Source of the DNA: Alienimonas californiensis
GTDB taxonomy: Bacteria; Planctomycetota; Planctomycetia; Planctomycetales; Planctomycetaceae
NCBI RefSeq assembly: GCF_007743815.1
Contig: NZ_CP036265.1
Span: 4,781,823-4,845,822, forward strand
Direction of reading: 5' to 3'
DNA length: 64,000 nt
Below the pieces are notes generated by a model. That model made no database searches. It was not told where the DNA came from and worked only from the letters and a program-made list of their open reading frames with translations. The translations under genes were made by a program, and so were the position numbers. The number at the start of each line of letters is the position of its first letter. Positions within the stretch are counted from its first letter, which is position 1. Below are positions 32,347 to 38,266 of the stretch, in pieces.

Positions 32347-33459
32347 GTGCCCGACGCCCCCCTGCCGCGCGTGCTGCTGCTGGCCGGCCGCTTGGAAGTC
32401 CGGGCGCGCAGCGCCTACACCCTCCGACTGGCCCGCGGCCTGCCGGGGGAGGGCTACGAGCCGCTGATCGTTTGCGCCGACGCCTCCCGCCTGTCTTCGT
32501 CGGTGCGGGACGCCATGGACGTGCGGGTCTATAAGGAACTGGACCGCCCGGCCTGGGGACTGGTCGTGCGGGCCGGGTTGCTCCGCGACCTGCGGGAGGA
32601 GCCGCCGGACGTGGTGCACGTCCAAAGCCCGGAGATGCTCGGCTGTGGGACCTACCTCGCCAAGCGGCTGGGCGTGCCGGTGGTCGTCACGTTCCCCGCG
32701 GCGCCGTACGGCATCGACCGATTCACCCGCACGGACCCGATCGTGCGGCGGGCGATCGCGATCTCCAAGAGCGTCGCCGCGGACCTGCTCGGCGTGAGCC
32801 GCTTCCCGGCGGACCGCCTGCGGATCATCCACAGCGGCGTGGACGTTGACGAGCAGCCCACCCACGTGCTGCCGCCCGGCCGGGTGCCGGTCGTCGGCTC
32901 GGCGGGTCCGCTGGAGGCGCCGAAGGGGCTGCCCTACTTCCTCGGGGCGGCGGCCCGGGTGAAACGGCGGTTCCCGGAGTGCCGGTTCCTCCTCTCCGGC
33001 GCCGGCCCGGAGGAGGAGAATCTTCGCCGCGTCGCCCGGGAACTGGGCTTGGAGAACGCGGTCACCTTCGCCCCGAACCTGCTCGATTTCTCCGCGGGCT
33101 TGGCGGCGACGGACATCTTCTGTCTGCCCAGCCTGTCGCAGGGATTGGGGGCCACGATGCTGGAGGCGATGGCCCGCGGCCGGCCGGTGGTGGCCAGCGG
33201 CGTCGGCGGGGTCGACAGCGTGATCGAGGACGGCGTGACCGGCCTGATCGTCCCGCCGGCCCGGGGGGCGGCGATGGCCGAGAGGATCTGCGAACTGCTG
33301 GCCGACCCGGAACTTGCCCGCCGCATCGGCGCCGCGGGCCGGGAGGTGGTGCTCGAACGCTTCGGCGTCGCCCAGATGGTCGCCGAAACGGCCGCCCTCT
33401 ACGGCGAGGCCCTCGCGGAGTGGAGCGACCTCGCCGGCAAAGCCGTCCCCGCCGCCTGA
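32347..33459 (+). CDS. Family 4 glycosyltransferase
   Basis: A 370-residue cytoplasmic GT-B enzyme starting with GTG 3 bases after the preceding stop. The N-terminal domain begins RVLLLAGRLEVRARSAY, and the C-terminal GT4 domain carries GSAGPLEAPKGL and FCLPSLSQGLGATMLEAMARG. The latter fits the EX7E-type donor-binding region, in which Glu of MLEAMA is conserved and the first Glu appears to be replaced by Gln (SQG). The acceptor and donor are unknown. The replacement of the first motif residue is a point to verify. Confidence 0.85.
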   Translation: MPDAPLPRVLLLAGRLEVRARSAYTLRLARGLPGEGYEPLIVCADASRLSSSVRDAMDVRVYKELDRPAWGLVVRAGLLRDLREEPPDVVHVQSPEMLGCGTYLAKRLGVPVVVTFPAAPYGIDRFTRTDPIVRRAIAISKSVAADLLGVSRFPADRLRIIHSGVDVDEQPTHVLPPGRVPVVGSAGPLEAPKGLPYFLGAAARVKRRFPECRFLLSGAGPEEENLRRVARELGLENAVTFAPNLLDFSAGLAATDIFCLPSLSQGLGATMLEAMARGRPVVASGVGGVDSVIEDGVTGLIVPPARGAAMAERICELLADPELARRIGAAGREVVLERFGVAQMVAETAALYGEALAEWSDLAGKAVPAA

Positions 33460-33562
33460 TCCGCCGCCGCTGCGGTCCCGCGGCGCCCGCCCCCGCCTTC
33501 GCCTTCGCCTTCCCGCTTTCCCGTCCCCTGGTCCGCTCGTCGGTTCGCCCCCGCCCGTCCTC

Positions 33563-34771
33563 ATGCACGCGGAGATCTTCGCCCTCGGTTCGGAACTGAC
33601 GACCGGCGCCAAGCTGGACACGAACAGCCAATGGCTGAGCGTGGAGCTGGCGGCGCTGGGGATCGAGACCCGCTTCCACCACACCGTCGCCGACGACCTG
33701 CCGGCGATGTTGGACGAGCTGCGGGCCGCCGCCTTTCGCAGCGAACTGGCGATCCTCACCGGCGGGCTCGGCCCGACCGCGGACGACCTCACCCGCGACG
33801 CTCTCGCCCAACTGGCCGGCGTGCCGCTGGAGGAGGACGCCGCCAGCCTCGCCCACGTGCTGGCCTGCTACCGCCGATTCGGACGGCCGATGCCCCCGAA
33901 GAACCGCGTGCAGGCGCTCGTCCCCGCCGGGGCCGAGGTCGTGCCCAATCCCCGCGGCACCGCGCCCGGCCTGTGGATGACGCTGCCGCCCGGCGCCGGC
34001 CCGGACGCCCCCGGCGGACCGGGCGGCTGCACGCTGGTCGCCCTGCCCGGGGTGCCGGCGGAGATGAAGCCGATGTTCCGCGAATCCGTCGCCCCACGGC
34101 TGCCGCGGGGGACGAATCTGATCCGCGTCGCCCGGGTGAACCTGTTCGGGGCGGGGGAGAGCTCCGTGGAGGAGCGGCTGGGCGACCTCACCGCCCGCGG
34201 GCGCGTGCCGGAGGTCGGCATCACCGCCCACGAGGCGACGATCACCCTCCGCATCGTTGCTCGGGGGACGGACGAGACGGAGATCGAACGCCAATTCGCC
34301 GAGGTGCGCCGCCTCGCCGCGGAGCGGGTCGGCGATCTGATCTTCGGCGAGGAGGACGACACCCTCGCCGGCCGCCTGCTGGCGACCTTGCGGGCCCGCG
34401 GCGAAACGCTGGCCGTCGCCGAGGTCGGCACCGGCGGGCGGTTAGCGGACTGGCTCTCCGAGGAGGACGACCCCGCCGCGCCCGCGTTCCTCGGAGGCGT
34501 CACGGAGAACCGCGACGACTACTGCCTGGGCGAACCCGTCGCCCCCGGCGACGCCGCAGAGCGGGTGCGGCGGCAGTGGGGGGCAACCTACGCCCTGTTC
34601 ACGCCCACCCTCTCGGCTGAGGGCGACGGCCCTGGCCTGACGCTGGCCACGCCAGACGGCCCGGTGCGGGAGCCGTATCGCCGCGTCGGCGACTCCACGA
34701 TCGCCCGCAGTCGGCTGGGGAAGGCCGCGCTCGACCTGCTCCGCCGGCATCTCGTTGGACTTGCAACCTGA
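33563..34771 (+). CDS. cinA: CinA-like protein with intact N-terminal domain and degenerate amidase domain
   Basis: A 402-residue protein. The ATG at 33563 starts the family sequence directly. The N-terminal molybdopterin-binding-like (COG1058) domain is well kept (SELTTGAKLDTNS, GGLGPTADDLTRD, LPGVPAEM). The C-terminal domain aligns with the CinA amidase, but the nucleophile motif ESCTGG has become E287-V-G-T-G-G, and the Tyr and Lys that should follow are Glu and a charged stretch (GGVTENRDDY). The amidase is therefore expected to be dead. An intact stand-alone amidase is at 10169-10681. COG1058 domains have been linked to ADP-ribose pyrophosphatase activity. Low-level homology of the C-terminal part is inferred from motif order and length. 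Confidence 0.85.
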   Translation: MHAEIFALGSELTTGAKLDTNSQWLSVELAALGIETRFHHTVADDLPAMLDELRAAAFRSELAILTGGLGPTADDLTRDALAQLAGVPLEEDAASLAHVLACYRRFGRPMPPKNRVQALVPAGAEVVPNPRGTAPGLWMTLPPGAGPDAPGGPGGCTLVALPGVPAEMKPMFRESVAPRLPRGTNLIRVARVNLFGAGESSVEERLGDLTARGRVPEVGITAHEATITLRIVARGTDETEIERQFAEVRRLAAERVGDLIFGEEDDTLAGRLLATLRARGETLAVAEVGTGGRLADWLSEEDDPAAPAFLGGVTENRDDYCLGEPVAPGDAAERVRRQWGATYALFTPTLSAEGDGPGLTLATPDGPVREPYRRVGDSTIARSRLGKAALDLLRRHLVGLAT

Positions 34772-34817
34772 TCGCCCAACGACCAGACCCGTCCGACGCC
34801 GGAGCGGTGGAGAGGAT

Positions 34818-34837
34818 CGAGCAGGTCACGCTGCTCG
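34818..34837. repeat. 7-bp inverted repeat upstream of the sigma-54 promoter
   Basis: CGAGCAG-N6-CTGCTCG at 34818-34837 is a perfect dyad 33 bases upstream of the sigma-54 GG element. It may be an enhancer site for a sigma-54 activator, or the terminator of the CinA-like gene 46 bases upstream; no T run follows it. Confidence 0.35.
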
Positions 34838-34869
34838 CGATGCGACCACGGGAGCAATCAGGCTCCGGC

Positions 34870-34885
34870 TGGCACCGCCTTTGCT
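34870..34885 (+). promoter_or_regulatory. Near-consensus sigma-54 promoter before the small membrane protein gene
   Basis: TGGCACC-N4-TTGCT matches TGGCACG-N4-TTGCW at every position but one, with exact spacing. The start site should be near 34896, leaving a 60-base leader before the ATG at 34956. A GTCGAC-containing palindrome (AGTCGACT, 34899-34906) lies at the expected start. This is the best promoter match seen in the window. Confidence 0.65.
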
Positions 34886-34955
34886 TGGCAGTGGCTGGAG
34901 TCGACTGACAACGCTCGGCCGGCCACGTTCCACAGCCCAAACGCACTCTCCAGCT

Positions 34956-35120
34956 ATGCTCAAGATCGCCCTCATCCTGTTCGTCGTGGCCATCGTCGCC
35001 GCCCTGCTCGGCCTCGGAGGGATCGCCGACTTCGCCCTCTGGGTCGCGGGAGTCATCGCGGTCGTCGCCGTGGTGCTGCTGATCATCCACGCCCTGACCG
35101 GCCGCACCCCCACGGTCTAA
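34956..35120 (+). CDS. DUF1328 / UPF0391-type small membrane protein
   Basis: A 54-residue protein with two hydrophobic helices (MLKIALILFVVAIVAALLG and a second after GGIADFALWVAG), the size and pattern of DUF1328. The ATG at 34956 has no Shine-Dalgarno upstream. Members are found in many bacteria, often induced by stress, with no known activity. A near-consensus sigma-54 promoter lies 70-86 bases upstream, and a second tiny membrane protein gene follows 73 bases later. Confidence 0.8.
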   Translation: MLKIALILFVVAIVAALLGLGGIADFALWVAGVIAVVAVVLLIIHALTGRTPTV

Positions 35121-35193
35121 CACGGTCTCACGTTCCCGCAGCGGGCCTCCCGCGTCACGGACGTCCCCATTTTCTCGCGACTGGATACGCACG

Positions 35194-35412
35194 ATGAGAG
35201 CCCTTGCCGCCGCGGCCGTGGTTCTCCTGATCCTCGGCCTGCTCGGCTGGTTTACCCTCTATTCAGACGGGGGTCGCTTCGGGGTGGACGTGGATCAGGG
35301 CCGGATTTCCGAGGACGTCGACAAAGCGGCGGACGCCGTGGAGGCCGGCGCCGCCAACGTGAAGGAAGAAGCGGATAAGGTCTCGGTCGACGTGGACGTC
35401 GACCGAGAATAA
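35194..35412 (+). CDS. Small single-TM acidic protein, unknown
   Basis: A 72-residue protein with one N-terminal membrane helix (AAAAVVLLILGLLGWFTLY) and an acidic amphipathic tail rich in Asp, Val, Lys and Ala, ending DVDVDRE. I recognise no family. It lies downstream of the DUF1328 gene and may share its sigma-54 promoter. A hairpin terminator follows at once. The coding call rests on GC-rich third positions, the TM plus acidic-tail design and position. Confidence 0.6.
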   Translation: MRALAAAAVVLLILGLLGWFTLYSDGGRFGVDVDQGRISEDVDKAADAVEAGAANVKEEADKVSVDVDVDRE

Positions 35413-35418
35413 CCGCCC

Positions 35419-35449
35419 GCGGGGCGTCGGTTTACAGCCGGCGCCCCGC
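35419..35449. terminator. Hairpin terminator between convergent genes
   Basis: GCGGGGCG (35419-35426) pairs with CGCCCCGC (35442-35449), extended inward by a T:G wobble and CGG/CCG around a TTTACAG loop. It lies between the stop of the small acidic protein gene and the last codons of the vWA gene on the other strand. Confidence 0.65.
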
Positions 35450-38266
35450 GTTCGCTTTCGCCGCCCCGAACACGTCGTCCGCGTTCGCCTTCGGCCCCTG
35501 CCGAACGGCGGGAGCGGGCGGCCCGGTTGAGCCCTCCGGCCGAACCGGGGCTGCAACCGCCCGACGCTCCCGCGTTCGCGGGGTCGCAACCACTTCGTTT
35601 GCCGCTTTCCACGGGAGTGCCCACTGCCAGCGGCGGCCGGCGATCTCCCAGAGCAGCAGGCCGACGCCCGCCGCCGCGAACCATGGCCATAGGGCCGTGG
35701 GCGCCGGGCGGGGCGGAGGATCGTTGAATACGGTCGCCACGTCGGCCCGTCGCACGCCGCCGGAGAGGGCGGCGATCTCTTCCAGCGTCGCGGCGCCCGG
35801 CGGCCGGTCGTCCCGCGGCAGGAACTCCGGCGAATAGGGCAAACTGACCGGCGGCCCCCGCGTGACCAAGCCGCCCGGGCGACGCAGCAGCGTCCGGTAG
35901 GTGCCGACGAGTTCCAGTTCGAACCGGCCGCTCAGCGTCGCCGGGCCGTCCCAGCGTAGGTCGACGGGGAACGGCGTCGCGGGGGGACCGGCGTCGGGGT
36001 CGTCCGCGGGGGGGACGACCAGCAGCTCCAGTTCGTCGCCGGCGTCGTCATCGGCACGCTCAGGATCGAGTTCCACCGTGACGGCGGCGGTCCGCCCCTC
36101 TCGCTCCGCCGTCAGATACGCCCCCCCGCCGTCCCCGCCGGACATAAGCCAGCGAACGTGCGTGAGGAGAAAGTCGTTCAGCCCGACCCAGTCGCCGACC
36201 GGCCCCGGCGCCCCGCCGTCGTCCGCGGCATGAAGGGGAAACGTCAGCGACGCGACTCGTCCCAGCCCGCGATACCACGCCGCGGCGAGCGGTGCCGCGT
36301 ACTGGTCGCGGGTGCGGACGGTCAGCGAGGCGTCGTCCCGCAGTTCGGTGAGGTTGTAGCCGCCCACGCCGGGGAATGCCCCGGCGCCCAGTTCCCCCAC
36401 CAGGGCGACGCCGGGGGCGAACTCGCCCGGGATGCCGGCGGGCGTCTCCGCGGTGACGAAGGTGTCCGTGACGACCGCCAGTGCGTCTTGGGCGAACAGC
36501 CGGGGGAGTTCGCGGGGGTCGTCCGTGAACAGCACGTTCCCCCCGCCGGCCGCGGCGACCGCCTCCAACAGCGGGGCGTCCGAATCCAGCCGAGAGCCGA
36601 GGCCGATCACGCTGACGGTCGCCCCCATCTGCCGCAGCCGTTCAAGCGGGCGAACGTAGTTCGTAGGGCTCTCTGCATCCGCGGCGTCGGCGAAGACGAT
36701 GACGTGCTTGGTTGCCGCGTCGGGGGCCTGATCCAGTTGATCCGCCGCGGCGTCGAGGGCGGCGTCCACGTAGATCCCCCCGCCGGAGGAGACGATCCCC
36801 CGGGCCGCCGCCGCGACCCGGCCGGCGCCGGCGTCGATCTCCGTCAGCGGCACGATTGCCTCGGCGGCGGTGTCCACGGCCAGCACCGCGGCCCGGTCGC
36901 CGCGGGACAGCACCGCGACCGCTGCTGCGGCGCCTTCGTTCGCCAGGTCCATCTTCGTCCGCCCGCCGCCGCCGGCGTCGCCGACGGGAACGGCCATGCT
37001 GCCGCTGCGGTCAAGGGCGACCACGATCGCCGACCGCTCCTTCTGGGCGTCCTCCCGCAGGTCCATGGAGACGGGCAACGCCGGGTCGAGCGGGCTCTCA
37101 AAGTACCCGCCGAGCGCGTAGCCGTTCCGGCCGCCGGTCGTCAGCAGCCCGCCGCCGAGATCTTCGACGAACCGCACCAGCGCCGTCATCTTCCGCCGGC
37201 CCAGCGAGGAGGCCGGCACGTCGTCGAGGATCACCGCCCCGTACGGGTCCAGCGAATCCTGCGTGAGCGGCCGCTCCCCCGGCGCCGCCACGTCGACCTC
37301 GATCCCCGCCGCGGCGAGTGCCCGGCCAATCCGTCCGCCGCCCGTCGCGCCGTCCGCCCCGCCGCCCGCGGCCGGTTCGCGGAGCAGCAGGACTCGGCGG
37401 GGGGCGTCGATCCGCAGGCCGGCTTCGCCCCGGTCGTTCTCCGAGCGGGGGTCGCCCGGGACCTCCAGCGTCGCCGTGTACAGGTGGAAGCCGTCGGCGG
37501 GCGCCAGATCGCGGAACCGCACCCGCCCCCGGCCCGCGGGGAGGTCCACCTCCCGGGAGGCGAGCGCGGTCGCCGGCCCCCCCGGTTCCCGCCGGGCGAG
37601 CGACACTCGGCCGCGGGCGGCGACGAGGCTGACGAACTCCACTCCCACCGCGATCGGCTCTCCCGGGGCGGCGGAGGCGGGCAGGGTGAGGGCGGTGATC
37701 GCCGCGTCGCCGGAGCGGACCGCGGGGAACGGCCGCACGTCGATCGGCGTGCCCGCGGCCCGAGCCCGGCGGGCCGCATCGCGGGGATCCGGGCCGTTCG
37801 CCTCGCCGTCTGACAGCGTCAGCAACCGGGCCGGCCGGCGGGGGTCGGTCAGATCGAGGGCGAGGTGCAGGGCGGCGTTGAGGTCCGTGCCGTCGGCGTC
37901 GATCGGGTACAGGAACTCCCCCGTCGCGGCCGCCGCGGACAGCGGCCGCTCCGCCGCCGGCCGGCCGCCGAACGTCACCACCCCCAGTCGATCGCCGGGG
38001 CCGCGGGCAGCGTCCACGTTTCGCACCAGTTCGGCCAGCGCGGCGTCGTCGGCGGGCATCGACCGGCTGCGGTCCAGCAGGAGCACCACGTCCGTCCCCT
38101 CGCCGGACAGATCCGCCACCGGCCCGGCCGCCGCAGCGATCAGCAGTGCCGCCAACGCCCCCCGCAGGCCGTCCGTCCGCCAGTCGCCGGTGCGGCCGAA
38201 CCGTTGCCACGCCCACCCGACCGGCAGGGCCAACAGCAACAGGGCGGGGCGGACGAAGGGGAGCAC
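35432..38266 (-). CDS. Double-vWA membrane protein with GATase-like domain
   Basis: A 944-residue protein starting with GTG. Two N-terminal helices (1-55) are followed by a first vWA domain with intact MIDAS (DRSRS near 65, later TDLN threonine and SDG), a beta-rich region, a GATase1-like Rossmann region (GAVILDDVPAS, GGLLTTGG), and a second vWA domain with DRSGS but no matching threonine (GGGIYVDAAL) and ADAAD in place of TDG, so its metal site looks incomplete. A final TM helix lies near residue 850. Last gene of the MoxR/ABC operon. It probably sits in the inner membrane with the domains outside the cytoplasm; the role is unknown. Confidence 0.83.
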   Translation of the reverse strand: MLPFVRPALLLLALPVGWAWQRFGRTGDWRTDGLRGALAALLIAAAAGPVADLSGEGTDVVLLLDRSRSMPADDAALAELVRNVDAARGPGDRLGVVTFGGRPAAERPLSAAAATGEFLYPIDADGTDLNAALHLALDLTDPRRPARLLTLSDGEANGPDPRDAARRARAAGTPIDVRPFPAVRSGDAAITALTLPASAAPGEPIAVGVEFVSLVAARGRVSLARREPGGPATALASREVDLPAGRGRVRFRDLAPADGFHLYTATLEVPGDPRSENDRGEAGLRIDAPRRVLLLREPAAGGGADGATGGGRIGRALAAAGIEVDVAAPGERPLTQDSLDPYGAVILDDVPASSLGRRKMTALVRFVEDLGGGLLTTGGRNGYALGGYFESPLDPALPVSMDLREDAQKERSAIVVALDRSGSMAVPVGDAGGGGRTKMDLANEGAAAAVAVLSRGDRAAVLAVDTAAEAIVPLTEIDAGAGRVAAAARGIVSSGGGIYVDAALDAAADQLDQAPDAATKHVIVFADAADAESPTNYVRPLERLRQMGATVSVIGLGSRLDSDAPLLEAVAAAGGGNVLFTDDPRELPRLFAQDALAVVTDTFVTAETPAGIPGEFAPGVALVGELGAGAFPGVGGYNLTELRDDASLTVRTRDQYAAPLAAAWYRGLGRVASLTFPLHAADDGGAPGPVGDWVGLNDFLLTHVRWLMSGGDGGGAYLTAEREGRTAAVTVELDPERADDDAGDELELLVVPPADDPDAGPPATPFPVDLRWDGPATLSGRFELELVGTYRTLLRRPGGLVTRGPPVSLPYSPEFLPRDDRPPGAATLEEIAALSGGVRRADVATVFNDPPPRPAPTALWPWFAAAGVGLLLWEIAGRRWQWALPWKAANEVVATPRTRERRAVAAPVRPEGSTGPPAPAVRQGPKANADDVFGAAKANAGRRL

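Follow-up and report, generated by a model that had tools for sequence, protein, structure and literature searches.

The 64,000-nt stretch of the Alienimonas californiensis genome considered here (the window; contig NZ_CP036265.1, positions 4,781,823 to 4,845,822) contains two very small genes for membrane proteins, the first of which resembles the DUF1328 family. The locus raises the question of which sigma factor and which activator control these genes, and to what kind of response they belong. To our knowledge, it is not settled how a general stress response is coordinated in planctomycetes. The genome in question (designated G000) comprises 5.48 Mb in one contig, and its congener is designated G001.

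Organization of the Operon

The features of the locus are collected in Table 1. The operon is arranged in the order of sigma-54 site, 54-aa DUF1328-like gene, 72-aa partner gene, and terminator-like hairpin, with cinA lying immediately upstream on the same strand. The sigma-54 site, CTGGCACC-N4-TTGCT, has the full form TGGCACC-GCCT-TTGCT with a C just before it; its GG and GC elements are in register and near consensus, 70 nt separate it from the ATG of the DUF1328-like gene, and transcription of the operon would be expected to start near 34896. The original prediction had described a near-perfect sigma-54 site before a DUF1328 gene, followed by a second tiny gene with an acidic tail. Both were recovered, the site scoring close to the maximum and the second reading frame encoding an N-terminal membrane segment together with the acidic tail.

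Table 1. Coordinates of the features discussed, given as positions within the window
Feature	Position	Strand	Remarks
Enhancer-binding protein, 1061 aa	6685-9870	-	GAF-like, sigma-54 AAA+, Fis HTH; outside the DUF1328-linked clade
cinA-like gene	33410-34771	+	Molybdopterin-binding and KH domains present; CinA C-terminal domain matched only partially (positions 2-37 of 155, below cut-off), end divergent
Palindrome TGATCGCCCAACGACCA, likely activator site	34769-34785	+	17.6 bits, model trained without G000 and G001
Dyad CGAGCAG-GTCACG-CTGCTCG	34818-34837		Present; 32 nt before the sigma-54 site
Predicted sigma-54 promoter, -24/-12 elements	34870-34885	+	Score 20.7 of maximum 21.7
DUF1328-like gene, 54 aa	34956-35120	+	Two membrane helices; PF07043 full length, 24.8 bits
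Partner gene, 72 aa	35194-35412	+	Membrane anchor and acidic tail; conserved unnamed family
Terminator-like hairpin 3' of partner gene	35418-35450	+	15 pairs, 12 G-C

The 54-aa protein matches DUF1328 (PF07043) over the full length of the family (1-39 of 39) at 24.8-25.6 bits, and it is called DUF1328-like because this score lies under the Pfam cut-off of 27; its syntenic orthologue in the congener, located between cinA and the partner gene, reaches 27.9 bits. No family was found for the partner protein in Pfam and NCBIfam. The hallmarks of its family are a membrane anchor, a GWLTF-like motif, an ASVT-like segment, and an acidic tail, as seen in an alignment of 11 copies immediately 3' of DUF1328 from ten genomes, and a profile search places the family in 18 of 59 genomes. 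The conservation of this family and the terminator after the second gene support the reading of the pair as a two-gene unit. Among eight partner members not immediately behind DUF1328, four own a sigma-54 site, and three (G049, G057, and G040) lie less than 5 kb from DUF1328. At another locus (L051, G004:C154:62576-64409), the DUF1328 and partner pair occurs as a tandem duplication, with a strong sigma-54 site at the first DUF1328 copy only.

Conservation of the Promoter within the Class

DUF1328 was found in 33 of the 59 genomes, including that of A. californiensis, and 51 of its 52 matches were scored over 300 bp of upstream sequence by a simple weighting of the sigma-54 consensus (maximum 21.7; threshold 17.5). 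Conservation upstream of orthologues had been set beforehand as the test on which the original prediction could fail, and a site was found to be kept at 37 of the 51 DUF1328 genes, in 26 of the 33 genomes, in agreement with sigma-54 control of the operon. At the same threshold, the controls gave 38 of 1020 shuffles, 4 of 51 antisense regions, and 3 of 51 reversed regions, and at a score of at least 19 the comparison was 25 of 51 genes against 2 of 1020 shuffles. Genes for ribosomal protein S20 (S20p) in the same genomes carried a site in 2 of 29 cases, none of which reached 18. Three additional genes from the same family as A. californiensis all possess the site.

The remaining 14 genes have no site within 300 bp, and they include genes from genomes bearing the regulator discussed below (G002, G024, G025, G030, and G053). 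Two of the site-less cases have a site farther upstream, at about 330 bp in G021 and before a DUF3309 gene just upstream in G024, while none was found farther up for the others.

The scoring was extended to 80 named loci outside this set of genomes, where the site was detected in three of four planctomycetes (Rhodopirellula sp. SM50, R. rubra, and Botrimarina colliarenosi, the exception being a Planctomicrobium MAG) and in 8 of 76 non-planctomycetes, and of the genes examined from other classes of the phylum, 7 of 24 reach 17.5. The sigma-54 link therefore belongs to this class of planctomycetes and not to DUF1328 generally. Sigma-54 control of DUF1328 outside planctomycetes was considered and rejected, as the eight loci at 17.5, of which two reach 19, are little above chance.

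Genes Sharing the Promoter Type and a Probable Link to Stress

In the DUF1328 neighbourhoods of relatives, strong sigma-54 sites are located before DUF3309, DUF2383, CsbD, and partner genes, as well as before PRC-barrel-like and lipoprotein-like genes that were named by eye; a Dps-like gene near DUF1328 has a site lacking the -12 GC. Pfam confirmed a single example of each of the DUF2383, DUF3309, Pmp3, ferritin-like, and PRC-barrel proteins. CsbD is present in 28 of the 59 genomes, and 17 of the 30 CsbD loci examined have a sigma-54 site. It is absent from A. californiensis and its congener, and the regulon of A. californiensis may therefore be small.

Such genes are known as cargo of general stress responses elsewhere. 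In Salmonella, ytjA (DUF1328) is tabulated among small genes under tight sigma-S control (PMC5437024), and csbD and mscS are given as direct EcfG targets in Sphingopyxis (PMC7083833). The original prediction spoke of an envelope-stress regulon; the connection with stress-type genes is borne out in the relatives, but the word envelope rests only on the membrane location of the proteins, and the neighbours look more like a general stress set. A narrower interpretation, that the response in which sigma-54 controls the operon concerns the envelope, osmotic conditions, or nitrogen and not general stress, is the less probable reading. In its favour, both products are membrane proteins, CsbD is absent from the A. 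californiensis genome, and the aRpoN-DB survey (2025) predicts that in Planctomycetia sigma-54 controls MscS channels as well as UspA and chaperones (PMC12316311); against it, CsbD, DUF2383, DUF3309, a Dps-like ferritin, and Pmp3 are among the genes that lie nearby or carry such promoters in relatives.

The Candidate Activator

A PF00158 scan of 11 genomes showed, in 6 of them, genes for enhancer-binding proteins at a distance of about 2 kb or less from DUF1328. These DUF1328-linked activators constitute a single NtrC-type response-regulator family whose Fis HTH is distinctive (GNQSxAAxxLGITRG), and a profile of this HTH, built mostly from linked copies and applied at E 1e-12, marks 34 of the 59 genomes. 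Regulator and DUF1328 occur together in 30 genomes, DUF1328 only in 3 (G051, G054, and G058), the regulator only in 4 (G014, G032, G034, and G043), and neither in 22, an association with a Fisher value of 3e-9 that is uncorrected for ancestry. CsbD is present in three of the four genomes that have the regulator without DUF1328. The two genes are also linked physically: of the 30 genomes with both, 13 have them no more than 6 kb apart, and in 11 of those 13 the distance is about 2 kb or less. In three more genomes (G036, G002, and G025) the regulator is found beside CsbD or the partner family. In the phylum sample, close linkage was seen in two of three additional family genomes with both genes (G126 and G192; not G161), and strong matches to the regulator profile were confined to the class, beyond which the matches were weaker (E 1e-13 to 1e-15). 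In the Planctomicrobium MAG the regulator adjoins DUF1328, yet there is no strong sigma-54 site.

The A. californiensis member of this family, P0003 (G000:C1:3714407-3716032), comprises REC, sigma-54 AAA+, and Fis HTH domains and shares 81% identity with the congener copy. The congener copy in turn shows 50-56% identity to ten linked copies, against less than 45% for the remaining activators of the two genomes. In a phylogenetic tree P0003 joins the linked regulators with a support of 100/100 (other rows carry a long-branch warning). The loop motif reads GSFTGA in P0003 and GAFTGA in the G001 orthologue. On this linkage and orthology, a P0003-type response regulator is likely to be the activator of the operon.

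Two islands of relatives additionally encode a hybrid kinase (PAS, GAF, HisKA, two REC, and Hpt domains) near DUF1328. In G018 (L248 15247-18416), a phytochrome-type HWE kinase lies in the DUF1328 island, as does a gene that appears by eye to be haem-oxygenase-like, which hints at light input.

The Candidate Activator Site

A 17-bp palindrome, TGATCGC-N3-GCGATCA, was discovered de novo by an EM motif search of the regions upstream of sigma-54 sites; two word-count searches for a common dyad in these regions gave nothing clear, so that the palindrome was returned by the EM search alone. The best match in the window is TGATCGCCCAACGACCA, the centre of which lies 93 bp before the -24 element, and the congener has TGACCGCCGCGCGGTCA at 94 bp. 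In both genomes the palindrome overlaps the cinA stop codon.

When each genome was left out in turn, 26 of 59 regions reached 10 bits, as compared with 27 of 590 shuffles, and 14 regions as compared with 9 shuffles reached 12 bits; windows at S20p loci reached 10 bits in 4 of 90 cases. Held-out matches in the three named planctomycetes with a site scored 13.9 (at 93 bp), 11.6, and 11.7 bits. On the weak side, 33 of the 59 promoters fall below 10 bits, 4 of 16 selected CsbD promoters outside islands reach that value, and none of the seven out-of-class genes with a site does. In two genomes of one genus, divergent DUF3309 and partner genes share one palindrome between two sigma-54 promoters (L250 7913-8114 and L251 6653-6835).

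The palindrome of Table 1 is thus put forward as the likely, predicted activator site. In the original prediction this part had been assigned to the dyad closer to the promoter. The dyad itself is present, but it was not seen in the congener or other relatives, and the palindrome fits instead; the dyad is probably not the activator site. A terminator function of the dyad was likewise rejected, given that no T-run follows it and that the stretch folds no better than shuffles (z 0.24).

The activator had also been sought within the window. A suitable protein does exist there on the minus strand, but another regulator family is linked to DUF1328 in relatives and has its A. californiensis copy elsewhere in the genome, and the in-window protein is probably not the cognate activator. 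That the sigma-54 promoter is correct and yet served by another enhancer-binding protein, such as this GAF-AAA-Fis protein acting at the dyad, seems unlikely. In favour of this reading, the protein has a good sigma-54 AAA+ domain and a Fis HTH, the dyad lies at a usual enhancer distance, and the activator can differ between genomes, as shown by G058, where strong sites occur near an NtrC-type regulator of another kind; against it, the dyad was not seen in relatives, and in the tree the in-window protein pairs with one from the congener and stays out of the DUF1328-linked clade. Sigma-54 sites occur in both G051 and G058, where a regulator of the linked family is absent. In G058, the different regulator stands near a DUF1328 gene with a strong site (L258 17415-18890) and falls outside the linked clade, and this genome has possibly swapped its activator.

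Occurrence of the Motifs in the A. californiensis Genome

The genome contains a single rpoN (G000:C1:3562634; 218 bits). The exact motif TGGCACN5TTGC occurs six times in 5.48 Mb (four forward and two reverse), as compared with seven occurrences of a reversed-pattern control, and is thus not enriched genome-wide, yet one of the six matches sits 70 nt before the DUF1328-like gene. Another (L053, around G000:C1:1869187) lies 84 bp before the gene for a 392-aa prepilin-like protein with a GFTLIELL start. It is very improbable that the site is a chance match and that transcription of the operon comes from a different promoter or from cinA read-through, for although the motif is no commoner than its control and no terminator was found between cinA and the operon, the site is kept in 26 of 33 genomes, well apart from the controls, and no sigma-70-like promoter was found at 34600-35500. 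The site at 34870-34885 is real and is probably the promoter of the operon.

The exact sequence TGRTCGNNNNNYGAYCA has three matches in the genome, and only the one at 34769-34785 has a strong sigma-54 site downstream; palindromes with one mismatch are not enriched (59 and 56 against 79 and 82). At another of the three (L319, around G000:C1:3345594), the exact palindrome is accompanied by a weaker sigma-54-like site (18.0), and the downstream gene encodes a His-rich protein of 266 aa, which begins like a signal sequence and contains HAGHDH repeats. This locus is a possible second target in A. californiensis.

Proposed Mechanism and Comparison with Known Systems

It is probable, judging from the sequence evidence assembled above, that the operon is under the control of sigma-54 and a P0003-type regulator acting through the palindrome, as part of a system that parallels the general stress response but is driven by sigma-54. 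According to this model, a kinase would phosphorylate the NtrC-type regulator P0003, for which the PAS-GAF-PAS hybrid kinase with REC-REC-Hpt beside DUF1328 in two relatives may offer an example; the phosphorylated regulator would bind the palindrome, and DNA looping and ATP hydrolysis would allow the sigma-54 complex to open, so that the DUF1328-like protein and the anchored acidic-tail protein could be produced from one promoter, presumably under stress. Other planctomycetes of the class would use a like promoter, often with the same palindrome, before CsbD, DUF2383, and DUF3309 genes.

Compared with the general stress responses run by sigma-S in enterics and EcfG in alphaproteobacteria, the cargo is alike, namely DUF1328 and, in the relatives, CsbD. 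The difference is that a sigma-70-family stress factor selects the promoters in those systems, whereas the planctomycete operon has a -24/-12 promoter that needs an enhancer-binding protein. The planctomycete system may work like the sigma-S, EcfG, or sigma-B response, but it is not a member of that group because its promoters are of the sigma-54 type. The likeness to NtrC-family activation lies in the REC, sigma-54 AAA+, and Fis HTH domains and in a palindrome about 90 bp before the -24 element; P0003 differs in belonging to a separate DUF1328-linked clade with its own palindrome, and the neighbourhoods inspected showed no tie of the linked regulator to nitrogen genes. In the phage-shock response, PspF and sigma-54 drive small membrane proteins under envelope stress, and PspF has no receiver domain, unlike P0003, which carries a REC domain.

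Several reports touch on sigma-54 and stress in planctomycetes. In R. baltica, a sigma-54 promoter has been proposed before a stress-induced thioredoxin gene, and rpoN is described as unregulated in heat shock and down-regulated in high salt (PMC2754498). The aRpoN-DB survey differs from the present analysis in that its main text mentions neither DUF, CsbD, COG5487, nor COG3237, and it is not known to name a regulator or a binding site for genes of this kind (PMC12316311). No link of sigma-54 to DUF1328 or CsbD was found in the open-licence papers searched. The sigma-54 activators of Pirellula were reportedly analysed in 2004, in work that may bear on this link.

Implications for Planctomycete Stress Biology

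The best reading is that A. californiensis would keep at least this operon of a class-wide, sigma-54-dependent regulon of the general-stress type. The chances appear evenly balanced that the general stress response of Planctomycetia as a whole is run by sigma-54 instead of a sigma-70-family stress factor, with one orthologous activator, the TGATCGC-N3-GCGATCA site, and near-consensus -24/-12 promoters controlling DUF1328, the partner, CsbD, DUF2383, DUF3309, and others. If so, the cargo of sigma-S and EcfG would have been placed under an enhancer-dependent, kinase-fed switch, and stress genes would have been rewired from a sigma-70-family factor to sigma-54, with activation requiring ATP and a dedicated activator. 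DUF1328 and its partner, two uncharacterised families of small proteins, gain a regulatory context, and with a named regulator, site, and set of targets, stress coordination in planctomycetes becomes testable by single-gene deletion.
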